NCBI GenBank assembly: GCA_028583405.1
Contig: CM053247.1
Location: forward strand, 11,427,563-11,491,562
Direction of reading: 5' to 3'
Source of the DNA: Pogonophryne albipinna
Taxonomy: Eukaryota; Chordata; Actinopteri; Perciformes; Artedidraconidae
Length of the DNA: 64,000 nt
The position numbers and the translations under genes were made by a program. The notes beneath the pieces were generated by a model that saw only the letters and a list, made by a program, of their open reading frames with translations, searched no databases and was not told the origin of the DNA. Shown in pieces: positions 2,124 to 60,214 of the stretch. How positions within the stretch are numbered: the stretch's first letter is position 1; the number at the start of each line of letters is the position of its first letter.

Positions 2124-4220
2124 GAAGTATTCCCCTCACTGTCAAATGATTACACAGCGATATCTGCATTACTCATCCACTAAAAAACATCAGTTTATCT
2201 TTGTTAATTACACAATATTGATTGGTTTAAATTGTGTACAATGCTCTTGTGTTTTTAACCTTCGATTCGGAGAAACAAATAGTTATTTCGGAGTTTAGAC
2301 ACTACAGAGTTTCCGAAGACACTACACTACCCAGAATCCCCAGCTATCGTTTGGGACTACAACATCCGCCTTGCTTTACAAACCCTGTGATTAGTCCTCA
2401 AGCTCTGTGATTGGATGTTGGAGTGGCAGTGCGACAAGGTTACGCCGAGCATCAACAGCTCTTTGAAATGGAATGGAACCACGGCAGACTTTCCAAAACT
2501 GGACTCGGAATCGGACCCCCCCCCAGAACTACACATGCTGGCTATTGTGTGTTACACAACATGTTCTATGGCACGTCTCTACTGGGAATTGTAGTTTTAT
2601 AAGACGTTTTCGCAATTTCCCACAATTAGAAGTTGCAAGTATTAAACTGTGTACACCCCTGGAGGTTTAGGGGATACCAAACACATTGGTGTTAACTAAT
2701 TTAAAACATATAATTAATAAATGGGTGAAAATTGCTTGTGCCCATAATGGGCAGCATTAATATACCCACATGACAGCTAAGGTCAGAAAAGCTTTATTTA
2801 ACAGCTGGTCTTATGTTTGTGACCCCTCCTGTTGTTCATTGATAAGCCTGAAACATGCACTTGTCAAGGTTCAGAGGCAAATTTTGCAAATATGGCAGTA
2901 GCCATCGATCATCATAAGATAAGATAAAATATACTTTATTGATCCCAAGTTGGGAAATATTTTTGTTACAGCAGCATGTACTACTTTGTTCTATTCCACT
3001 ACAATTCAGAGGTTAACCTGGTATTTTTACTCCAATACATTTATTTTTGTTACTTTGCAGATTCTGATTAATGATGTGAAATATAAACAACCCTTAAATC
3101 AGACTTTAGTTACACCTGAGTCAAATTCAGGGAAGGTGATTGTCAAGTGCCAAAATAAACTATGCAATATATTAGACGCTAAGTACTTTGTCAGACTTAA
3201 TATTTATATGTAGATACCCCCAAAGATTTTTTCTTGTTCAAAAGAAGACTTTAACTTAAAGTATTATTTAATGTTTAAATAAAGCCTTATTAGTGTGTCT
3301 GTTTTGCACATCCTCCTATTAATATCTTTGGACGTCCTGCACTAAACTGTTTTATTGTAGAGATCACTACAGTATCTTCTTGATATTTTATATTCTATAT
3401 TTCTATCATTGACCTTCTACTTTCCCCCTATTTTGTATGTAGGCTACTCTTAATATTTAAATGTTTTCATCAAATATAACATTCAACAACAAAATTCAAT
3501 AACGTGCTTTAACCACTAGGCGGTGCAGGTTAAAAAAACAGTGTTCTAGTTAATAAAACATAATATCAGCTATTGAAATTCTGATTCCATAGATGTGTCT
3601 CCCATCTCCCAAAACCCCTGACTATTCTCTCAACTCAGTATTTACATTCTTTAATTCAAAGAAAATCAGTAATATCTTTAAAAACTATAAGTCCTTTTCT
3701 ATCAGCTGTGCACCGTTATGGTGTAATAACGAGCAAACTAAAGATCATGTACATCCACTGCACACATAATCTGAAATAACAACTCATATTTCTCGCATCA
3801 AATGACATCAAAACGCATTTTAATGGCCAAACTAACTTTAAAATAGGCATTTTCCACCGAGAATAAAACGAAGTTCGGCCATGTTTTTTTTTTCTGCAGT
3901 GAGAAATTTGAAGATCACGTGACATAGACGCCAGCCATTGGAATGAATGGTGAAAAAAAACGGGGTTTGTCAAACAGAGCACATGGTGTAGTCCATACGA
4001 TAGCTGGGGATTCTGGGTAGTGTAGTGTCTTCTGCTATCCTTTACTCCGAAAAAATATTTGTTTCTCCGAATCGAAGGGGAAAAATACAAAAGCATTGCA
4101 CACAATTTAAACCAATCAATGTTGTGTAATTAACAAGGATAATCTGGTGTTTTTTAGTCGATGAGTAGTGCAGATATCACTGTAAAATCAATCGACAGTA
4201 AGGGGAATACTGACTTCCGG
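2124..4220. mobile_element. Inverted-repeat pair, probable DNA transposon remnant
   Basis: The sequence at about 2124-2350 reappears in reverse complement at about 3995-4220. Shared blocks include the ggaagt...attcccct end, the block around gattggtttaaattgtgt, and ctacccagaatccccagcta. The arms are diverged (roughly four in five bases match by eye) and separated by about 1.6 kb of unrelated AT-rich sequence. The layout fits a non-autonomous DNA transposon or two copies of one repeat in opposite orientation. No target-site duplication was identified and no transposase ORF is present. It ends about 570 bp before the npffr2 exon. Confidence 0.55.
2905..3200. repeat. Dispersed teleost repeat fragments
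   Basis: Around 2919-2960 there is a tail of the type 'tactttattgatcccaagt', common at the 3' ends of fish retroposons. The following block (about 3060-3120, around gattaatgatgtgaaatata) recurs in diverged form at about 55025-55080. I cannot assign a family. The 87-codon frame across it is not considered a gene. Confidence 0.45.
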
Positions 4221-19212: not shown

Positions 19213-19613
19213 TGATACGAGGAATGAAGCAGGTAGGACCCAAACGCAGATAACACTGATAATACCTTTATTTCAAGGGCTCTTATCTAATATATCACAT
19301 GGAACAAACAAAACACTCCACGGTGAACTCGGTCACAAACAAAAGAAGCACCAACACTGAACACAGGAAGAGACAAGACTAAATACAGGGCGGGGTAATC
19401 ACAAGACGAGAAACAGCCGGGCAGGGGAGGAGAAACACAAGGACCACAGGTGAACACAATCAGATAACTAGACACACCAGGGAACTAACGACGGGAGGAA
19501 AAACACAGGGAAAAAGGACCAGACAATAACCCAGGAGGAAAACATGACAGAGAACAGCAAAAACACCCAAACATACAAAACCACAAACGTGACATAACAT
19601 GAGAATCGTGACA
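19213..19613 (-). repeat. LTR-A 3' LTR
   Basis: 401 bp. About a dozen differences from the 5' LTR fall within 19213-19350, and only about one in the remaining 260 bp. The adjoining c-rich run at 19617-19624 (+ strand) is the polypurine tract of the - strand element. Confidence 0.85.
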
Positions 19614-19716
19614 GAACCCCCCCCTCAAGGGACGGATTCCAGACGTCCCTAAAAACCACAAAAGTCCAAAACCTCAAGCAGGGTGGGTGGAGGGGGTCCG
19701 GAGGAGGGACACAACA

Positions 19717-22700
19717 CTAGGCGCACCAGGGTGGGTGGAGGGGGTCTGGAGGACGGGTTTTGGGCTGACAGCCCAGGAGCACAGCGGAGGGCCCGGAAGG
19801 GATCTCGGGCGGACGGCCCGGGGGCAAGGCAAAGTCCAAGGTGGAGATCTCGGGCGGACGGCCCGGGGGCAAGGTAGAGTCCATGGAGGGGCGAAGACCA
19901 CAGCGGGCAAACTCAGGGGGCCGAGCATGAGGGCGAAGGCAGCGGCAGGAAGAGTCAGGGGGCCGAGCATGAGGGTGAAGACCGCAGCACTCAGGGGGCC
20001 GGGCTCGAGGCCGAAGACCGCGGCTCTCAGGGGGCCGGGCTCGAGGCCGAAGACCGCGGCTCTCAGGGGGCCGGGCTCGAGGCCGAAGACCACGGCTCTC
20101 AGGGGGCCGGGCTCGAGGGCGAAGACCGGACAGCTCCGGAGGCCGGGCAGGAAGGCGCTGACGGGACAGCTCCGGAGGCCGGGCAGGACCCGGTGTCGGT
20201 GGGACAGGCTTTGGCAGGATCCCCCACGGAAGAGGACCAGGAGTTGGCAGGACCCTCGGCGAGACAGGTAACGGCAGGACCTCCAACGGAACAAGACATG
20301 GGATTGGCAGGACTCCCAGCGGGTCCTCCAACGGAACAGGACATACGGCTGGCAGGACCCCCGGCAGAAGAGCAGTCGGCGGGGCCTCCAACGGGACAGG
20401 ACACAGGGTTGGCAGGACCCCCGGCAGGAGAGCAGTCACCGGGACCCCCAACGGCACAGGACATAGGACTGGCAGAACCCCCGGCAGAAGAGTAGTCGGC
20501 GGGACCTCCAACGGCACCGGACACAGGGCTGGCAGGACCCCCGGCAGAAGAGTAGTCGGCAGGGCCTCCAACGACACAGGACACAGGGTTGGCAGGACCC
20601 CCGGCAGAAGAGTAGTCGGCGGGGCCTCCAACGGGACAGGACACAGGGTTGGCAGGACCCCCGGCAGGAGAGTAGTCGGCGGGGCCTCCAACGGCACAGG
20701 ACACAGGGTTGGCAGGACCCCCGGCAGGAGAGTAGTCGGCGGGGCCTCCAACGGCACAGGACACAGAGTTGGCAGGACCCCCAGCGGAACCTCCAACGAC
20801 ACTTGGGTAGGGACTTGAGTGGGAACTCGATCAGAGACTCGAGAGGTGACTCGAGAGGGAACTCGAGAGGTGACTTGAGAGGGGACTCGAGAAGAGACTC
20901 GAGAGGGGACTCGAGAGGGGACTCGAGAGGTGACTTGAGAGGGGACTCGAGAAGAGACTCGAGAGGGGACCTGAGAGGGAACTCGAGAGGAGACTTGAGA
21001 GGGAACTCGAGAGGGGACTTGAGAGGGGACTCGAGAAGAGACTCGAGAGGGGACCTGAGAGGGAACTTGAGAGGGATCTCGAGAGGGAACTTGAGAGGGA
21101 ACTCGAGAGGGGACTTGAGAGGGAACTCGAGAGGGGACTTGAGAGGGGACTCGAGAGGGGACTTGAGAGGGGACTCGAGAGGGGACTCGAGAAGAGACTC
21201 GAGAGGGGACTCGAGAAGAGACTCGAGAGGGGACCTGAGAGGAGACTCGAGAGGAGACTCGAGAGGAGACTTGAGAGGGGACTCGATAGGGAACTCGAGA
21301 GGTGACTTGAGAGGGGACTCGAGAAGAGACTCGAGAGGTTACTTGAGAGGGGACTCGGGTAGGAACTTGAGAGGAGACTTGAGAGGGAACTCGAGAGGAG
21401 ACTTGAGAGGAGACTCGAGAGGGGACTCGAGAGGTGACTTGAGAGGGGACTCGAGAAGAGACTCGAGAGGGGACCTGAGAGGGAACTCGAGAGGTGACTT
21501 GAGAGGGGACTCGAGAAGAGATTTGAGAGGGGACCTGAGAGGGAACTCGAGAGGAGACTCTAGAGGAGACTTGAGAGGGGACTCGATAGGGAACTCGAGA
21601 GAGGGCTTGAGAGGGAAGTCGAGAGGAGACTCGAGAGGTGACTTGAGAGGTGACTCGGGTAGGAACTTGAGAGGAGACTTGAGAGAGGACTTGAGAGGGA
21701 ACACGGGAGGATACTTGAGAGGGAACTCGAGAGGAGACTTGAGGGGGAACTCGAGAGGAGACTCGAGGGGGAACCTGAGAGGGAACTTGAGAGGGAACTC
21801 GAGAGAGGGCTTGAGAGGAGACTCGAGAGGTAGCTCGAGAGGAGACTTGAGAGGGAACTGGAGAGGAGACTTGGGACGGTTGGTTCGCCAACAGAACACG
21901 AGGGGAACGAGGTGCTGGAGTCCGCCAGTACGCCGACAGGACTCTGGGAGCTGGCGTCGGCTGGGGAGCCAGCAGGAGACGAGGTGCTGGAGTCGGCCGG
22001 TACGCCGACAGGCCTCGGGGAGCTGGCGTTGGCCGGTACGCCAACAGGACTCGGGGAGCTGGCGTCGGCTGGAGAGCAAACAGGACTCGGGGAGCTGGCG
22101 TCGGCTGGAGAGCCAACAGGAGACGAGGTGCTGGAGTCGGCCGGTACGCCGACAGGACTCGGGGAGCTGGCTTTGGCTGGAGAGCCAACAGGAGACGAGG
22201 TGCTGGAATCGGCCGGTACGCCGACAGGACTCGGGGAGCTGGCGTCGGCCGGTAAGCCAGTCCTGGAGCCGAAACTGGAGTCGGGACCATGGCTACTGGG
22301 GCCGGTACTGAAGCCGGAACCATGGCTGCTGGGGACGGAACCATGGCTGCTGGGGCCAGGACTGGGGCTGGAACCATGGATGTGTGGGCCGGTTCTGTAG
22401 CCGGAACCATGGCTGCTGGGGCCTGTACTGGAGCCCGAACCATGGCTGCTGGGCACGGAACCGGAACCCGGATCCATGGCTGTGTGGGATGGTACTGGAG
22501 CACGGAACCATGGCTGTGTGGGCCGGTACTGGAGCATGGAGCCATGGCTGCTGGGGCTCGGGCTGCAAGCTTAGCCTTGCGACTCCTTCTCTTAGCAGCC
22601 GCCTGAATACTCCGTGGACCTCCATAAGCCAGCCGAGTTCCAGAATACGACTCCTGGACAGGAGCAGGAACTGGGGCAGAAGCATGGGTTGACTTCAGAC

Positions 22701-22980
22701 GGAACCCCGCGAGGCGTATGGTACCTGGTTGGGAATTGGGAGACAGGGAGCTAGCATGCCTGGGGCTAGCAGGCCGGGAATCACACACCGGGAGGATCTT
22801 TGAAATCCAGCCAGGTAAGAATTTCACCAAACCTGGTTTCTCTCTAGCCATCTGGCGCGCCTCCGACAACACAGCCTCTCGCTGCTGAACTCCGGGTGCT
22901 CTCTTCCATCGATCCGAGCAGTTAGCCAAAAAAAAGGAAAAATTCAATAATTCCAGCTCGAACGGATCTGCTGGGCCCAT
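19717..22980 (-). CDS. LTR-A long proline/serine-rich repeat ORF
   Basis: An uninterrupted frame of about 1,087 codons. I chose the ATG at 22978-22980 (MGPADPFELELL), 19 bases after the LTR; the frame is also open further up into the LTR. Residues 1-75 look like a real domain (FSFFLANCSDRWKRAPGV, then REAVLSEARQMAREKPGLVK), mostly helical and unlike the rest; I do not recognise it. A short basic patch follows, and then five blocks of tandem repeats: APAAMVP-type, APRLLLALQPTP-type, about 90 four-residue units (VPSQ/VSSR), seven or eight 20-residue units (LPGVLPTLCPVPLEAPPTTL), and 12-residue RARPPESRGLRP units. Every period is a multiple of three bases, so unit gain or loss keeps the frame. 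No zinc knuckle, protease or polymerase motif was seen. It could be a Gag-like protein or a captured repetitive host sequence; function is unknown. The 502-codon GDSR-type frame on the + strand (20803-22311) is its shadow. Confidence 0.55.
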   Translation of the reverse strand: MGPADPFELELLNFSFFLANCSDRWKRAPGVQQREAVLSEARQMAREKPGLVKFLPGWISKILPVCDSRPASPRHASSLSPNSQPGTIRLAGFRLKSTHASAPVPAPVQESYSGTRLAYGGPRSIQAAAKRRSRKAKLAARAPAAMAPCSSTGPHSHGSVLQYHPTQPWIRVPVPCPAAMVRAPVQAPAAMVPATEPAHTSMVPAPVLAPAAMVPSPAAMVPASVPAPVAMVPTPVSAPGLAYRPTPAPRVLSAYRPIPAPRLLLALQPKPAPRVLSAYRPTPAPRLLLALQPTPAPRVLFALQPTPAPRVLLAYRPTPAPRGLSAYRPTPAPRLLLAPQPTPAPRVLSAYWRTPAPRSPRVLLANQPSQVSSPVPSQVSSRATSRVSSQALSRVPSQVPSQVPPRVSSRVPPQVSSRVPSQVSSRVPSQVLSQVSSQVPTRVTSQVTSRVSSRLPSQALSRVPYRVPSQVSSRVSSRVPSQVPSQISSRVPSQVTSRVPSQVPSRVSSRVPSQVTSRVPSRVSSQVSSRVPSQVSSQVPTRVPSQVTSRVSSRVPSQVTSRVPYRVPSQVSSRVSSRVSSQVPSRVSSRVPSRVSSRVPSRVPSQVPSRVPSQVPSRVPSQVPSRVPSQVPSRDPSQVPSQVPSRVSSRVPSQVPSRVPSQVSSRVPSQVPSRVSSRVPSQVTSRVPSRVPSRVSSRVPSQVTSRVPSRVTSRVSDRVPTQVPTQVSLEVPLGVLPTLCPVPLEAPPTTLLPGVLPTLCPVPLEAPPTTLLPGVLPTLCPVPLEAPPTTLLPGVLPTLCPVSLEALPTTLLPGVLPALCPVPLEVPPTTLLPGVLPVLCPVPLGVPVTALLPGVLPTLCPVPLEAPPTALLPGVLPAVCPVPLEDPLGVLPIPCLVPLEVLPLPVSPRVLPTPGPLPWGILPKPVPPTPGPARPPELSRQRLPARPPELSGLRPRARPPESRGLRPRARPPESRGLRPRARPPESRGLRPRARPPECCGLHPHARPPDSSCRCLRPHARPPEFARCGLRPSMDSTLPPGRPPEISTLDFALPPGRPPEIPSGPSAVLLGCQPKTRPPDPLHPPWCA
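19890..20130. repeat. 36-bp tandem repeats in LTR-A ORF
   Basis: Units of the form gggggccgggctcgaggccg followed by aagaccgcggctctca repeat head to tail about 3.5 times from 19990, with more diverged copies before. They encode 12-residue units on the - strand. Confidence 0.85.
20290..20790. repeat. 60-bp tandem repeats in LTR-A ORF
   Basis: Seven to eight 60-bp units, each containing ttggcaggacccccggcag. They encode 20-residue units in the - strand frame and also leave a second open frame (SCAVGGPADYSPAGGPANPV units, 20099-20764), which I treat as a shadow. Confidence 0.9.
20803..21880. repeat. 12-bp minisatellite, about 90 units, in LTR-A ORF
   Basis: Units close to agaggggactcg in uninterrupted tandem over about 1.08 kb, grouped into higher-order blocks by g/a and tcg/ttg variants. 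Many junctions contain the palindrome ctcgag. Encodes R-V-P-S / Q-V-P-S units on the - strand. Confidence 0.9.
21900..22570. repeat. Longer-period tandem repeats in LTR-A ORF
   Basis: Blocks built on ctggcgtcggctggagagcc, gacaggactcggggagct and accatggctgctggggc recur with variable spacing. They supply the APRLLLALQP and PAAMVPAP repeats of the - strand frame. Confidence 0.8.
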
Positions 22981-22998
22981 TTCTAGGTTGGTGCTTTC

Positions 22999-23398
22999 TG
23001 ATACGAAGAGTGAAGTAGGTAGGACCCAAACGCAGATAATACTGATCATACCTTTATTTCAAGGGCTCTTATCGAACATATCACATTTAAACACAAAACA
23101 CTCCACGGTGAACTCAGTCACAAACAAAAGAAGCACCAACCCTGAACACAGGAAGAGACAAGACTAAATACAGGGCGGGGTAATCACAAGACGAGAAACA
23201 GCCGGGCAGGGGAGGAGAAACACAAGGACCACAGGTGAACACAATCAGATAACTAGACACACCAGGGAACTAACGACGGGAGGAAAAACACAGGGAAAAA
23301 GGACCAGACAATAACCCAGGAGGAAAACATGACAGAGAACAGCAAAAACACCCAAACATACAAAACCACAAACGTGACATAACATGAGAATCGTGACA
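22999..23398 (-). repeat. LTR-A 5' LTR
   Basis: 400 bp, tg...ca ends on the - strand. It contains a polyadenylation signal (aataaa in ccttgaaataaaggtatg, near 23050) and a TATA-like gtatttag near 23165-23172. It is nearly identical to the 3' LTR except in the terminal 140 bp on the internal (low-coordinate) side. Confidence 0.85.
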
Positions 23399-34289: not shown

Positions 34290-37129
34290 TCAGTGTGCAT
34301 AGTCCTGCAAGTACTGTGGCTTAACAACTGGTCGGCCAGCTCTGGTAGTCACAGTCTGTTGTGTGTCACACATGACTCTGTCAGGGGTTGTAACAGTTTC
34401 TGGAGTCGTGTGAGTGTCAACAGTCACCGTACGGGCTGTCACATTCGGTACTGTGCCCTGGACCCGTCGATTCCTCCTTAGAACACCTCCATTCTCTAGC
34501 TGCACCGTGTAGGACCTGTGGTCAACAGGCTCCACCACAGTAGCCTGTCAATCCGCTCTTGTGTTGTCTCACCCGTTTCACCTCGGGTTGTAGGAGACTG
34601 TTCCGAGCAGGTAGTAGAGTTCTGGTCCTCCTGCTAAGCAGTCCCTGAGCCGGGCTTGTAGTCAGTCCTTGAGTAGGTGTGTTGCGGTGATCCAACATAG
34701 TCAGGTACGGGTCCTGTCCCGCCGCCTTAGCTTTCAGCATCAGTCGTTTTGCAGTTTTCACAGCAGACTCGGTCTTCCCGTTGCTCTGTGGGTATCCAGG
34801 AGACGACGTTTTGTGCTCGAACTCCCACGGGCGACTGAAACGCTGGATGTAGTGTCTCTTTTTGTTGTTTCGTGTCAACTGATCTGCAAATGTCACATTT
34901 CACTATGAACGTTTTTATCTGTTCATTCATTCCCGGCCAGTAGACACATTCTCTCGCACGCCTGAGGCATGCCTCCACACCCAGGTGAGAGGAGTGGATC
35001 CGGCGGGTGATGTCCCTTTGTAGTGTATATGGGATGACAGCTCTCTCCCCTCTGAAGATGATGTCATCCTGTATACTCAGTTCCTCCTGGAATGAGTAGT
35101 AGTGCATAATATCTATCGGTGTGTCTTTCTTATGTTTAGGCCATCCCTTCTGAATGATGTTGCTAAGTGTCTGTAGCGTTTTGTCTCCTTGTGTAGCAGA
35201 GCGGATTGTGCTCAGTCTCTCTTCAGAGAAAGGCAAGTAGGCCACCATATTGACCGTCTCAATCTCAATTTCCACTGTTCCTGCAGATGAGCTCTCTGGT
35301 AAGTATGCTCTACTCAATGTATCTGCAAGTAACATGTCACGACCTGGGACATAAATCACATCAAAATCATATCTCTGAAGTCTGAGCAACATACGTTGGA
35401 GTCTCTTTGGTGCACTTAACAGTGGCTTCTTGACAATGTTCTCCAACGGCTTATGGTCACTCTGTACTGTCACTTTCCGGCCATACGTGTATTGATGGAA
35501 CTTTTCCATTCCATAGACAATAGCTAAACATTCTTTTTCTATTTGGGCATAGCCCCTTTCGGTTGGTGTCAGTGCTCTGGTCCCGAATGCTACAGGTTTC
35601 CCTTTTTGAGTCAGTGCTGCTCCCAGCCCCGTTTCTGAAGCATCACACTGCAATGTCAGTTCCTCTTGTGGGTCATAGTACTTCAGTACTGGTGTTTTGG
35701 CTATATTGTCCTTGAGCCTGCTGAATGCTTCTTCGTGCATTTCTGTCCATTCCCACATATTTTCCTTGTGTGTGAGCTGTCTCACAATCTCACAGTCATC
35801 TGAGAGGTGTTTGTAGAATTTAGAGAGATAATTTACCATGCCCATCAGTCTCTGTACACCCTTCACGTCAGTTGGTCTTGGCATGTCTCTCACTGCCCTG
35901 ATCTTCTCGGGGTCAATTTTCAGTCCATCTGCTGTCAGCAGGTGTCCAATATATGGCACCTCCTGCTGCCTCAACCTGAATTTCTCTGCATTCAGTTTGA
36001 TATTCTTTTCTCTGCATCTGCTTAGAAACTGTCTCAATTTATCATCATGGTCTTTGAAGGCCATTTCTTGTGTGTCACCTTCTCCTGTGATCAATACGTC
36101 ATCAGCTATGATGTAGATGCCTGGCAGACCCTCCAGTGCTTGATTCAGCATCCGCTGGAAAATCTCAGGTGCATGGGCATTCCATAGGCATCTTGAGCCA
36201 CCTAAATCTGCCAAACGGTGTAGCAAATGTTGTTAGATAGCTTGACTCCTCCTCCAATTTCACATGCCAAAAGCCATGTTTGACATCACAGACTGTGAAC
36301 ACCTTCGCTCTCGAAAGGTCTGGAAGGATGTCATCAATGGTAGGAAGTGGGAAATGGCTCCGCTTTAGAGCCTTGTTCAGTGGTCTTGGATCAATACATA
36401 TTCTTGGCTTGCCATTAGGTTTCTGCACTGTGACAAGACTACTTATCCAGTCTGTGCTTTTCTCCACAGGTGTGATGATCTCTCTCCTTTGTAGATCCTG
36501 CAGCTCTAACTTGAGAGGAGTCATCATGGCAACCGGGACTCGTCGTTTGGGGAGTTTCACCGGCTCCACCCTCTCGTCGATCTCGATCTTGTACTCTCCT
36601 TCCAGGCAGCCGTCACCTGTGAACACATCACTGTACTCCTTCTGTATTTGTTGCATGTGTAGACCACCGTGGGCTGATTTCACTTCAGTGACAATACTGT
36701 CAATAGCTAGTATGTTCTCATACTGTACTTTAATGAGTTTCATGGCTTCGCTTGCCTTCTTTCCCAACAGTGGTAGTCTACAGTCCTCATTCACCACCTC
36801 AAACTCCAGGCGGTACTGTTTTTGGTTCCTTGGGTTTCTCACCTTCACCTTGCATTTGCCTAGTGGATGCAGCCTGGTCTTGTTGTACATTACCAGCACT
36901 GTCTTAGTGCTCTCCAGCCGAGTTTCAGGGCTCAATAGATTCACAGGGATGACATTACAGCTAGCTCCACAGTCTATCTGAAACTTCACCAGCTCCTTGC
37001 CGATTAGCATCCCTGCGAAAAGCTGGCTGTTCTTGGCTTTGTCCTCCCCGGCCTCTTTACCAGTCACTGTCAGTATCTCTGTAGTGGTGACACTCAAGAT
37101 GTCCTCATATTCCTCACTGTCCTGTTCAG
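34290..37129 (-). pseudogene. LTR-B Ty3/gypsy pol, broken
   Basis: Pol of a Ty3/gypsy retrotransposon. Reading down the - strand: protease core (FQIDCGASCNVIP, about 36965); RT with FTVCDVKHGFWHVKL and IIADDVLITG (about 36100); RNase H (LTLQCDASETGLG, about 35640; YAQIEKECLAIVYG); and the integrase zinc-binding part (HSSHLG...KCDIC, about 34900-34990). The C-terminal integrase follows (SSPGYPQSNGKTESAVKTAK, about 34790), and a tail ends RAGRPVVKPQYLQDYAH at 34290. Breaks: a frameshift in RT at about 36175-36190, an integrase core deletion near 34850 that removes the first two catalytic Asp regions, and a further frame change near 34540. It is dead. The neighbouring gag is broken too. Confidence 0.9.
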
Positions 37130-55583: not shown

Positions 55584-55826
55584 TTAAAGGGGGGGTAGGT
55601 AAGTTTCAGAAACCGGCTCGAGTGCACTAAAATTTGAAAGTACACAGCCGAAAAGAATCCGCCCCTTCCTTCAGACTTCCTTACAGAGCACCTCCTCCAA
55701 CACACATGAACGCGCACATGACTTAGGTTGGCTATATAGTTCAGGGGAATTGTAAACCATACAAAACCTGTCCAAGAGAAAAAGAGCGACCACGGCGTCA
55801 GATTTCAACTCGGTGTGTATGGGGGT

Positions 55827-56229
55827 TGTGATGCCCCTGTGGGTTCATCAGTAGAGAGGAGGTGGCTGTCCTGTCTGTGCTGTGGTGATTGGTGATTGCA
55901 GTAACTCAGGGCACCTGGGTCTGGTGTCCTGCAGCTATTTAACGCCTCTCTGCTCCTCTCTGTGCTCTCTCTGCTTCTCCCTGCAGGCACACCGGTTTTG
56001 TTGAGTATAGTAGGAGTTTCTTCAGTTGCTTTACTTTGTGCACTTCAACACTCTCACACACATACATGTCCATACAATCCTCACCCTGCATTTACATTAC
56101 TGATACCACTGACATCCACACCTCATACTTTACTGGATTTGATTTGTTTGTCTTAAATAAACACCTTTACCTACCCGTTGACATGTTGTGTCTCCTTTTT
56201 GTTGTGGGCTTTTGAGCCAGGTCGCAACA
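55827..56229 (+). repeat. LTR-C 5' LTR
   Basis: 403 bp. Possible TATA-like ctatttaacg near 55934 and polyadenylation signal aataaa near 56156 support U3-R-U5 order on the + strand. Confidence 0.9.
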
Positions 56230-56231
56230 AA

Positions 56232-56244
56232 TGGGGGCTCGTCC
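56232..56244 (+). promoter_or_regulatory. LTR-C primer-binding site, tRNA-Pro type
   Basis: tgggggctcgtcc, two bases after the LTR, equals the first 13 bases of the well-known tRNA-Pro primer site of gammaretroviruses. The match stops after that. Confidence 0.8.
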
Positions 56245-56798
56245 AACGGGTTATTTGTTTAAAAAGTTTGTGTAGTGCTCAGAGCACATGGTGTCATTGA
56301 GCAGCTGATTCATTGTTGTGGTCCAGCTGTGTGCTGGCTTGTCGCTGCTATTTGGGGGACACATCATGTCTTTTGGGTTTCAGGAAGCTGTAGTGTTTGA
56401 CATGTCGTCAGGTTTTGTGTGCCAATCAGAAGGTAAGATGTTGCTGTTTGGTACGCTTTTGTAAAAGAGATTTTCCCCGCTAGGCTTAAGTGGCGTTTCC
56501 CCTTGGGTTGCGTCTGTTTTTTTTTGTTTTTCATAGTGTTGTGGCGACGTGGTTAGTGTCAGCTGTTTTCGGACAGCTGTCTCGGGGGCACGTCCGCGTG
56601 AGTTCTTGGTGTTACCTGCGTGCAGGTCGCTCCATAACTCCGCCGGGTTCCAGTGCGTAATTACCCACCGCAAGCCACATGAAGACTAGGTGAGATTAGG
56701 AAGATTTTGTTTCGGCAGTTAGGGGGAAATTCTCTGTTGGGTTCATTTTATGCCCATGCGTGTTGGCAGTTTAGTACTTTGCTTTCTGATTGGTTATT
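56245..56798 (+). other. LTR-C leader
   Basis: About 550 bases between primer site and gag with no ORF of note. Packaging signals would be expected here but are not recognisable. Confidence 0.6.
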
Positions 56799-58964
56799 AT
56801 GACTTCTTTGTCAGCGTTTGTGGATGCGCCCTCAGTGTCTTTCTTAGATGATTGCCAGAAGGCGCAGTTGGTCGAAATAGCAGAGCACTATGACATTGCT
56901 GTTGTGGGGAGCAAGCGGAAACATGACATTAAAACTGTCATCGTGTCATCTTTGTTTGAGCAGGGGGTGTTGCAGAAGAGTGAGTCTGGTGCGGCAGGGT
57001 TCGTACCGGTAGTGGTTCAGACAGCTGGTTTGACGTTCGAGCAGCAAAAGGAGCTTTTGGCCATGCAGTTTGAACAGGAGAAGTTGCAGTTGGAGTTGAG
57101 GTTGGAGCAGGAGAGATTGCAGTTGGAGATGAGGGGTCAGCAGCAGGAGGTAGAGAAGCGTTTAGAGGTGGAGAAGGTGCTGGAGGTGGAAAAGATGAAA
57201 TGTGAGGTGGAACATGCTAGATTACGGCTGATTGGAGAGGGCAAGCTTTCTCTGGTGGAGGATGGTTCTGTTAGGTCGGCATCAGGTAGTGGCGATATTA
57301 TTTCTTACTTGCGGTTAGTGCCAAAGTTCAATGAGCGTGACCCTGACATTTTTTTTACTCTATTTGAACGCATAGCAGAGGCAAGAAACTGGTCAGATTC
57401 GGACAAAGTGCTGTTACTTCAGTGTGTACTCACTGGGCGAGCACAGGAGGCCTATTCAGCTGTTTGTGGCGAAAATGCTTTGGACTATGCCAGAGTAAAA
57501 TCAGCGGTGTTAAAATCATACGAACTTGTTCCTGAAGCGTATCGTCAAAAGTTCCGAAGTTGGGTCAAGGGGGATAAGCAGACACATGTGGAGTTTATCC
57601 GTGATTTGACTTCTAATTTTCAGCGCTGGTGTGCGGCAGCAAAGGTTGACAATTTTGACGGTCTTTGTGAACTCATTGTATTGGAACAATTTAAGGATGT
57701 TATCCCTCAGCGTGTGGCCACTTATGTAAATGAGCAGAAACCTTCCACCGCGCTCAGAGCTGCTGAATTAGCAGATGATTTTGTGTTGACACATAAGGAC
57801 AGTTTTACAGAGAAGTGGTCTAGGGGTGATTGGAGACGTGGAGAAGATGGTGGCTATTCCCGCGGTGGTGCAAAGTTCTCACCAGGCTCCTCCCGTAGAT
57901 TTGCAGGTCCAGGGCGATCCGAGGGCGCCAGAGTGGGCCAATGTCATTATTGCCGAGAAGAGGGTCATTGGAAGGAGCGGTGTCCGTTGCTGGAACCTGA
58001 GGGGAAGCCTCGTTCTTCATCACATGCTCCAGCCATGTGTTGTTCTGCCGTTTTGGTTAAAAAGCCGCAGGGTGTAAGATCGGGCATGGTGCCTGTTAAG
58101 AAGCTGGTTTGTGCCGACTTGGAGGTGGGTTCTGTTTTTGAGCCGTTCATAACGGAAGCCGTTGTATCGATGGTCGGTAGTGACAAGTATGTTCCGATTA
58201 AGGTGTTGCGTGACACAGCAGCTAGATACTCATTTATTGTTGAGTCAGTGTTGCCTTTTTCGTCAGAGACAGAAACAGGGGATTTTGTGCTGATGAGGGG
58301 CATGGAGATGGGCTTGATTCCTGTGCAACGTCATACAGTAGTGCTGGATTGTGAGCTGGTACGGGGAGTTGTGTCTATCGGCGTGCGTCCCGCGTTGCCA
58401 CTTGATGGGGTACAGATGATTTTGGGCAACGATCTAGCTGGTAGTGCTGTGTGGGCGGGTGTGCCACCGCCTGTGGTGGTTTCCAGGCCGTTGGCATCTG
58501 TAGAGCCAGATGAGAGCGGTTTGCAATTTCCAAGTGTGTCTCCAGTTTATACTGTTACGCGTGCGCAGAGCCGTAGGATGTCGACTGACCTACCTGTTTC
58601 GGAGTCTGGAAAATGTGGTCCAGCACGGTCCTTTGACTTTGAGATCGAGACAAAGCAGAAGAAGGAGAAGAAAGAGAGGAAACCCTGCAAAGCGAAGAAG
58701 AGGAGGCCGAACAAGAGGAGGCCGAACAAGAGGAGGCCGAAGGAGGTCGGCGCGCCCAAGAGGCCGATGAGCGCCTACATGCTGTGGCTCAACGCCAGCC
58801 AACCCAAGGAGGAGTGGGACAGTGGCGGAGGAGGAGCGTCCTCCAGTCCTAAGAAGGAAATTAAAAAAGCTGGAGTTAAGAAGGAGGATATTGGGTTGTC
58901 GTGGATCCCTTTGGGGCCCCGTCTTAAGGGGGGGGCTGTGATGCCCCTGTGGGTTCATCAGTAG
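56799..58964 (+). CDS. LTR-C Gag-protease fused to SSRP1-like HMG fragment
   Basis: 721 codons from the ATG at 56799 (MTSLSAFVDAPSV). Order: N-terminal SAP-like segment (residues 15-55); Glu/Gln-rich coiled coil (about 80-145, QEKLQLELRLEQERLQLEM); capsid with a SCAN-like region (about 245-330, containing CELIVLEQFKDVIPQRV); zinc knuckle CHYCREEGHWKERC from residue 382; and a protease-like domain with LRDTAARYSFIV (Asp 472; DTA instead of the usual DTG/DSG) and MILGNDLAG. No polymerase follows. From about residue 620 a Lys/Arg-rich stretch with three 15-bp repeats (58698-58742, RRPNK) leads into APKRPMSAYMLWLNAS (58752-58799), KEEWD (58806-58820) and GGGGASSSPKKE, reading like non-contiguous pieces of the SSRP1 HMG region. 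The last codons run over the polypurine tract into the 3' LTR, and the tag stop is at 58962. SCAN domains are thought to derive from Gmr1-type Ty3 Gags, which this resembles. Intact frame. Confidence 0.8.
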   Translation: MTSLSAFVDAPSVSFLDDCQKAQLVEIAEHYDIAVVGSKRKHDIKTVIVSSLFEQGVLQKSESGAAGFVPVVVQTAGLTFEQQKELLAMQFEQEKLQLELRLEQERLQLEMRGQQQEVEKRLEVEKVLEVEKMKCEVEHARLRLIGEGKLSLVEDGSVRSASGSGDIISYLRLVPKFNERDPDIFFTLFERIAEARNWSDSDKVLLLQCVLTGRAQEAYSAVCGENALDYARVKSAVLKSYELVPEAYRQKFRSWVKGDKQTHVEFIRDLTSNFQRWCAAAKVDNFDGLCELIVLEQFKDVIPQRVATYVNEQKPSTALRAAELADDFVLTHKDSFTEKWSRGDWRRGEDGGYSRGGAKFSPGSSRRFAGPGRSEGARVGQCHYCREEGHWKERCPLLEPEGKPRSSSHAPAMCCSAVLVKKPQGVRSGMVPVKKLVCADLEVGSVFEPFITEAVVSMVGSDKYVPIKVLRDTAARYSFIVESVLPFSSETETGDFVLMRGMEMGLIPVQRHTVVLDCELVRGVVSIGVRPALPLDGVQMILGNDLAGSAVWAGVPPPVVVSRPLASVEPDESGLQFPSVSPVYTVTRAQSRRMSTDLPVSESGKCGPARSFDFEIETKQKKEKKERKPCKAKKRRPNKRRPNKRRPKEVGAPKRPMSAYMLWLNASQPKEEWDSGGGGASSSPKKEIKKAGVKKEDIGLSWIPLGPRLKGGAVMPLWVHQ
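58925..58936 (+). promoter_or_regulatory. LTR-C polypurine tract
   Basis: taaggggggggc lies directly before the 3' LTR, the expected plus-strand primer position. Confidence 0.8.
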
Positions 58965-59339
58965 AGAGGAGGTGGCTGTCCTGTCTGTGCTGTGGTGATT
59001 GGTGATTGCAGTAACTCAGGGCACCTGGGTCTGGTGTCCTGCAGCTATTTAACGCCTCTCTGCTCCTCTCTGTGCTCTCTCTGCTTCTCCCTGCAGGCAC
59101 ACCGGTTTTGTTGAGTATAGTAGGAGTTTCTTCAGTTGCTTTACTTTGTGCACTTCAACACTCTCACACACATACATGTCCATACAATCCTCACCCTGCA
59201 TTTACATTACTGATACCACTGACATCCACACCTCATACTTTACTGGATTTGATTTGTTTGTCTTAAATAAACACCTTTACCTACCCGTTGACATGTTGTG
59301 TCTCCTTTTTGTTGTGGCCTTTTGAGCCAGGTCGCAACA
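58937..59339 (+). repeat. LTR-C 3' LTR
   Basis: 403 bp, identical by eye to the 5' LTR except one base. The identical 64-codon frames in both LTRs (55962 and 59072) are not considered genes. Confidence 0.9.
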
Positions 59340-60214
59340 GGGGTTATTCCCTATCTTTATTCAAGAGCGTGGTATTTACATTTGAGAGCATACTTTATTG
59401 ATTTCCTTCACTCAAACCCTGTCATCGCACCAAAGACAAACCAAAGAGTAACCGCCCTTACGGGACGCTGTAATAAGTAAAACGAACGCACCCGCAAGGA
59501 CACCTGGCCTCCTATTGGTTGAGGGATTTTGACAGGATTGTTGCACAAAAGTTTCGAGCGCGCAGAGAATAAATCTGAGAGCAGAAAAAATCCGTAAGCA
59601 GCAATATATCTGAGTGCAAGCGTACAGTTTGAGCAGAAGCAGAGCAAATCTAAGGGTTTGAGGGAAATAAATACATAAAGTATGCTCTCAAATTTAAATA
59701 CCACGCTCTTGAATAAAGATAGGGAATAACCCCCATAGGTGTGTTGCATCAGTTGTCGCCATCGTTGAAAAGCAACTCCGATATTGACTCTGGTTTGAAT
59801 TCTCCTAGTTTCCACTTTGTTTTTGTTCCTAATTTGCTCCGTTACATTATTTCCTTTGCCACCAGTAGACGACGTTGAACCTAACTCTGCCATGGTGAAA
59901 GTGGCCGCCTGTTGCTGGCGAGTCATTGAAGTACTGCTGCAATGCACGCCCAATGACGGCACGCCCAATGAGGGCACGAGATACATTTGTGCGTGCACGA
60001 GATGGAAGGCTGACAGACAGGACGGCAATCCCGGCTAAACGGATTGGTCGTACTTTTTACAGTATTACGGCTTCCACAGATGAATTTTTTTTATGGATTT
60101 TTTGTCAAAGCACTTAAGATATGCATTGCTATCGGGATGTTAAGAGCATTCCATGGAATATAACAAAAAGTGTATCTCGAGCCGGTTTCTCAAACTTACC
60201 TACCCCCCCTTTAA

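Follow-up and report, generated by a model that had tools for sequence, protein, structure and literature searches.

Probable transduction of host ssrp1 by a non-autonomous Gmr1-like retrotransposon in the notothenioid fish Pogonophryne albipinna

To our knowledge, most known cases of host-gene capture by retroelements come from oncogenic retroviruses and plants. Among LTR elements, uptake of host mRNA has already been described for Bs1 of maize (PMC13317346) and for endogenous retroviruses (ERVs) of crocodilians (PMC4299795). Gmr1-like Ty3/gypsy elements of fishes have been described as well (PMC3587641, PMC4592553), and an integrase placed upstream of the reverse transcriptase is the reported order of Gmr1 (PMC3587641). 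The titles and abstract openings returned by our literature searches described no capture of ssrp1 by a retroelement, although one may already have been published, and the word 'ssrp1' is absent from the main text of a notothenioid genome paper, which dates the notothenioid radiation at 10.7 million years (PMC10256766). Here we analyse a window of 64,000 nucleotides from the notothenioid Pogonophryne albipinna, in which we found an element that is very probably a non-autonomous Gmr1-like Ty3/gypsy retrotransposon with transduced host ssrp1; this grading covers the steps of origin, trimming and enzyme supply proposed below.

The element, at 55827-59339 of the window, is a complete LTR retrotransposon of 3.5 kb and is very young. 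Its 5' LTR (55827..56229, 403 nt) and 3' LTR (58937..59339) are identical at 402 of 403 positions, with a single mismatch, and are separated by 2,707 nt. Comparison of the flanks of both LTRs revealed a target-site duplication, GGGGT, at 55822..55826 and 59340..59344 (these and all further features of the element are given on the + strand). A primer binding site, TGGGGGCTCGTCC (56232..56244), starts two bases past the 5' LTR and presumably represents the complement of the 3' end of a proline tRNA; the same 13 letters also lie past the LTR in two pol-bearing relatives (L097 and L098). The leader (56230..56798) has 96% identity with that of a pol-bearing relative, and a polypurine tract (58926-58935) precedes the 3' LTR. 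Scanning the window for Rfam families and tRNAs gave no matches.

A single open frame (56799..58964) encodes gag, a protease-like region and an ssrp1-derived tail. Its first ATG is at 56799, the ORF called by the tool begins at a TTG at 56790, and its stop (58962-58964) falls within the 3' LTR, which starts at 58937. The first-pass annotation had described this frame with the motifs APKRPMSAYMLWLNAS, KEEWD and GGGGASSSPKKE and with a stop inside the 3' LTR, all of which we found as claimed. Gag includes a SCAN-type capsid C-terminal domain (57531..57800; Pfam PF02023, E 2.8e-17, residues 248-337 as numbered on the frame from 56790) and a CCHC zinc knuckle (57939..57986), which at 16.1 bits for PF00098 is below the Pfam cut-off of 20.8. 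Pfam gave no protease, integrase or reverse transcriptase match on the window frame, and the putative protease is named from its homology to relatives, P0121 and P0126 among them. The SCAN-like capsid in Gag, the LTRs, the primer binding site, the polypurine tract and the short target duplication are those of a Gmr1-like element; by the Pfam results and its internal length of 2,707 nt the element has no reverse transcriptase or integrase of its own and so is not an autonomous retrotransposon.

Other repeats were seen in the window. At 59340-59733, two inverted arms of 81 nt, 93% complementary, lie 232 nt apart, and the insertion site of the element seems to be the very end of this hairpin-like small DNA transposon. 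A further pair of direct repeats (19213-23398; 401 nt, 96.8%) encloses many internal tandem repeats at ~20300-22550, and the - strand at 34811-36719 carries pol remnants with the reverse transcriptase before the integrase, the usual Ty3/gypsy order, at 21-28% identity to Gmr1-like pol.

The tail was compared with the FACT subunit gene ssrp1, its source, which lies on contig C3 of the same genome; the host gene was traced via an HMG match and its exons were read in pieces. An SSRP1-like segment had earlier been placed at 58660..58890. Its ssrp1 origin stands and its extent does not: the derived part occupies 58624-58889, beginning with RSFDFEIETKQ (58624..58658), a piece of SSRP1 middle domain that had gone unrecognised and that matches a middle-domain exon at 35 of 35 nt. 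Next comes a piece of exon A (KKEKKERKPCKA, 58659..58694; best run 31 of 32 nt; exon at C3:26397515-26397647), followed by a piece of exon B (58695..58800; exon at C3:26397743-26397916) containing a 15-bp unit (KRRPN) that is repeated in frame, in numbers that vary among copies; after the repeated unit the match to the exon is 73 of 73 nt. Four letters foreign to the exon at that place, AACC (58801..58804), sit at an internal deletion, beyond which lie the end of exon B (CAAGGAG, 58805..58811), exon C with its middle deleted (58812..58855; exon at C3:26398884-26399026), represented by its first 10 nt (GAGTGGGACA) and by 21 of 21 nt at its end, and the start of exon D (58856..58889, 30 of 33 nt; exon from C3:26399102). 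Gene order, strand and reading frame are preserved throughout.

The element crosses the A/B, B/C and C/D joints at exact exon ends, and the host introns of 95, 967 and 75 nt are absent. Donor and acceptor sites of the host gene, where read, are GT/AG, and the breakpoints of alternative SSRP1 isoforms of other fishes indicate the same exon joints. Since three introns are missing at exact exon joints, the captured sequence is that of spliced ssrp1 mRNA; the first-pass suggestion that spliced host mRNA had been captured is thereby borne out at the DNA level within one genome.

Against the host exons, four stretches are missing from the element: everything that separates the middle-domain exon from exon A; within exon A, a segment flanked by two copies of AAGGAGAAGA; within exon B, the sequence that starts midway through helix 1 and stops just short of KEEWD, with the letters AACC at this break; and the central part of exon C. 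This last deletion would have occurred between GACA and GACA if the serine codon of the Pseudochaenichthys protein P0004 is ancestral. In contrast to SSRP1 itself, with which its exon sequence is nearly identical, the tail is limited to portions of the middle domain, basic linker, HMG helix 1 and post-box region, and it is not a working SSRP1. About the first quarter of the HMG box is left (positions 1-18 of 69 in Pfam HMG_box, scoring 17.2 bits against a cut-off of 25.4); helix 2 is absent, and the three-helix box is incomplete.

Chance similarity is ruled out by the exact stretches of 73 and 35 nt shared with ssrp1 exons of the same genome (E 2e-38 and 6e-16, calculated against small fetched pieces). 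Another HMG gene was also rejected as the source, as the DNA of eight further HMG-box loci from this genome did not match the element at E 1e-3 and SSRP1 was the top match among PDB chains (1.2e-6). The segment is thus closer to ssrp1 than to other HMG genes, in keeping with its first assignment. In protein searches, SCAN proteins of Antarctic fishes ranked first, with P0001 of Pogonophryne (96% over the region) among the top matches, and SSRP1 of many fishes came next.

A 337-nt query gave 353 candidate copies in this genome, of which 40 were scored, the window included; these were 98-100% identical as printed, and 97.6-100% for the 30 that we recomputed. In all 30 loci read, which are on many contigs, the ssrp1 piece is joined to the end of gag, and in 29 of them an LTR lies on its other flank (the exception is L018). 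Two loci, L013 and L014, have common flanks and represent a segmental duplicate. Insertion of the element into an ssrp1 retrocopy or next to one has, like an artefact of assembly, a practically negligible probability, and both are refuted by the recurrence of the same joints at the 30 loci and in proteins of other species. A gene inserted alongside the element was rejected on the joints of the 30 loci, and agreement over many contigs makes artefactual joints unlikely.

A search with the LTR gave 1,210 candidates, and the 40 scored were 99-100% identical; at L080, L083, L084 and L086 no element sequence lies beside the LTR, and these look solo. The solo LTRs L083 and L084 (C1:14428779 and C1:14432119) have the same flanks, 3.3 kb apart, and are a tandem duplication of LTR-carrying host sequence. 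For a comparison of LTRs, the 5' parts of 20 further copies were fetched. In 15 of the 20, both LTRs extend over 350 nt, with 0-3 mismatches and 0-21 gapped columns; an exact 5-bp target duplication flanks 12 of these 15 pairs, L012 has one of 4 bp, and L020 and L023 have none. With the window included, 16 pairs have 15 mismatches, or 0.0023 per site, a value that overstates the youth of the family as a whole because the copies compared were chosen for their likeness to the window. Near-identical copies, near-identical LTRs and target duplications together show that the chimera was mobile and multiplied after the capture, and they indicate that the element spread recently in this genome.

We then compared the element with relatives that bear pol. 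The closest such protein found, P0121, has 83% identity in gag and carries an integrase past the linker, and the more distant P0156 and P0169 have the order SCAN, integrase, reverse transcriptase. The window element has a SCAN-type gag in common with the Gmr1-like elements of fishes, and its relatives have the integrase before the reverse transcriptase; unlike those elements it is without pol, and ssrp1 stands in its place. We also considered whether the segment belongs to the pol or gag native to this lineage. This origin was rejected, the pol-bearing relatives read here having integrase at the position of ssrp1, and the earlier view of the segment as an acquisition holds on this count too.

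A 138-aa piece of P0121 gave 757 candidates in the genome; among the 150 scored, a group at ~92% to the piece has open frames of up to about 1,620 aa. A copy on C746 allowed the boundaries of the replaced region to be placed. Its primer site is identical to that of the window element and its leader 96.4% identical (L097); the LTRs agree at 86% across their first 183 positions and at 97% across their last 75, and ~145 nt of the window element are without homology in the LTRs of the pol-bearing relatives. The C746 copy continues with gag-integrase homology and then RNase H at its 3' end. After RNase H (L099) there is a stop, followed by the pre-polypurine 3' tail of the window element, the end of the parent element's 3' untranslated region (58903..58936), which matches at 36 of 39 columns counted on into the LTR; the second LTR of this copy was matched over its first 14 bases only. 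By this comparison, captured ssrp1 stands where pol had been, with the protease-integrase linker before it and the 3' untranslated region after it; the window frame then closes with residues that come from chance translation of untranslated region and LTR. At C4:25756993, C5:37000273, C17:22137473 and other places, the integrase matches P0121 to its odd end (RYFFLASVKARCCKVY) in frames of 713-744 aa, and this P0121-like group may represent a second non-autonomous type with truncated pol in this genome.

To see the element in other notothenioids, we examined seven related proteins (P0001, P0002, P0003, P0022, P0238, P0239 and P0241). The QPKEEWD break is present and helix 3 is retained in P0002 and P0003 (Gymnodraco acuticeps) and in P0238 (Champsocephalus esox). 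P0239 (C. esox) has more of exon A than the window element and shifts frame only past the basic run, and P0022 has lost the HMG part and retained the basic run. A nearly whole box is kept in P0241 (Trematomus bernacchii), with 61 of 69 HMG positions at 77 bits; past the box this protein continues into element sequence in a shifted frame, and as a gene model it could join pieces wrongly. Its database name, FACT complex subunit SSRP1-like, is likely a misnomer for an element copy, and annotators should be cautious of this Trematomus gene model, which runs into element sequence. The 5' joint is found in six of the seven proteins, P0241 beginning later. The 3' joint is likewise found in six: P0001, P0022, P0238 and P0239 have it in frame, P0002 and P0241 have it in a shifted frame, and P0003 stops short of it.

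The simplest reading of these forms would be one capture before the lineages parted, with transfer between species as the alternative. Judged from the pieces retained, which differ among species and are often longer elsewhere, the original capture appears to have been older and longer, and to have been trimmed since. In the window element, parental sequence borders spliced ssrp1 on both sides: the protease-integrase linker on one, and on the other the last part of the 3' untranslated region, immediately ahead of the polypurine tract. The element has lost integrase, reverse transcriptase and RNase H, and the capture is in frame with gag. Host sequence between parental sequences, without introns and in a chimera mobile after the capture, is what characterizes host-gene transduction. 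Mechanistically, a reverse transcriptase at work on packaged element RNA would have switched to a co-packaged ssrp1 mRNA and then back. The capture would have taken up ~0.8 kb, about residues 389-665 of SSRP1 (P0004 numbering), in the common ancestor of the notothenioids seen; deletions, several of which fell between short repeats, would then have cut it down. The element would make its own Gag, and the signals it shares with pol-bearing relatives suggest that these may supply the enzymes in trans.

We assessed selection on the frame with the window as reference, each place counted once and one segmental-duplicate copy left out, in 38 copies for the ssrp1 part and 33 for gag. Variants in gag numbered 59 N to 57 S against an expected ratio of 2.64 (p 1e-6). 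The ssrp1 part had 23 N to 8 S against 3.26 expected (p 0.83), from just 31 variant codons, some of them in a repeat that aligns uncertainly. The two parts differ (Fisher 0.025 for all variants, 0.008 for variants in at least three copies): gag is under purifying selection and the ssrp1 tail not detectably so. Of 40 distinct copies read, 37 have an open tail and three a frame-shifted one; the tails of L089 and L090 are frame-shifted too. The 37 are more open tails than a pure passenger needs, but the 40 copies were picked for likeness to an open query, and of 12 distinct copies found by way of the LTR seven have an open tail and five do not. We lean towards regarding the tail as a passenger today; at most, and with lower probability, it would be a basic stretch that lends some Gag molecules nucleic-acid binding or nuclear import. 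The copy L090 (C20:6790003-6795003) has ~50 consecutive G in its ssrp1 part, at ~3380-3430, either a true expansion or an assembly error; the extra length that had suggested a longer tail in L090 is this run of G, and that reading was rejected.

Identity to an essential host gene might in principle act as a shield at the level of sequence, as small-RNA silencing of the element would also hit ssrp1. The 73-nt stretch identical to an ssrp1 exon fits this idea, but variable codons make up a similar share of the ssrp1 part (31 of 87) and of gag (116 of 366), so that the DNA of the ssrp1 part is not specially conserved, and we regard such a shield as most improbable. A possible, though rather doubtful, use of the tail is that its Lys/Arg-rich KRRPN run serves Gag as a signal for nuclear localization or RNA binding. 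The number of 15-bp units changes in frame, from two to five among the copies compared, and the run is basic in the translated copies, in P0022 with its HMG part lost and in P0239; expansion of the units is nonetheless possible without selection, and constraint on the run has no statistical sign.

The first-pass annotation had speculated further, proposing a DNA-bending or nucleosome-binding tail that biases integration towards chromatin. For this genome the DNA-bending tail was rejected: with the box truncated, helix 2 absent and the tail free of any sign of selection at the protein level, such a role is unlikely. A functional tether, by which the SSRP1 piece would bring Gag or the pre-integration complex to nucleosomes, with a bias in integration as the result, is in our estimate very improbable for the same reasons, to which the recurrence of frame-shifted forms at several places is added, although the tail is basic and mostly open and FACT has been reported to bind the integrase of avian sarcoma/leukosis virus and to stimulate integration (PMC8149907). 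The nearly whole box of the Trematomus form, which is on the side of a tether, suggests that an older form could have bound DNA. An ancestral Gag joined to FACT SSRP1 with the whole HMG box may thus have been a chromatin hook that aided nuclear entry or integration, its box trimmed after a burst or under host pressure and its basic run retained; we consider this unlikely as well. Overall, we favour a functional Gag with a passenger tail that would have at most a generic basic property, and with enzymes that probably come from relatives.

The reported part played by FACT in avian retrovirus integration (PMC8149907) makes the choice of ssrp1 striking, and random uptake of an abundant mRNA explains that choice equally well. 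Host-gene transduction by LTR elements is a known phenomenon, of which this is a new case: a Ty3/gypsy element of a vertebrate acquired the mRNA of a FACT subunit, multiplied with it and left differing forms across species, and with such a series of forms the capture, its joints and the stepwise loss can be read from genomes. Bs1 of maize is without pol and has a host piece joined to gag. Like the window element, it is an LTR element with pieces of host genes in a chimeric frame, and it differs in being from a plant, in holding pieces of three host genes and in not being Gmr1-like (PMC13317346). The ERVs of crocodilians captured mRNAs of KIT-ligand and nectin3, in one instance at the cost of a viral gene (PMC4299795). 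Whereas the window element is a Gmr1-like retrotransposon with a shrunken host piece that bears no sign of purifying selection, these ERVs are retroviruses with intact receptor or ligand frames, reportedly under purifying selection (PMC4299795).
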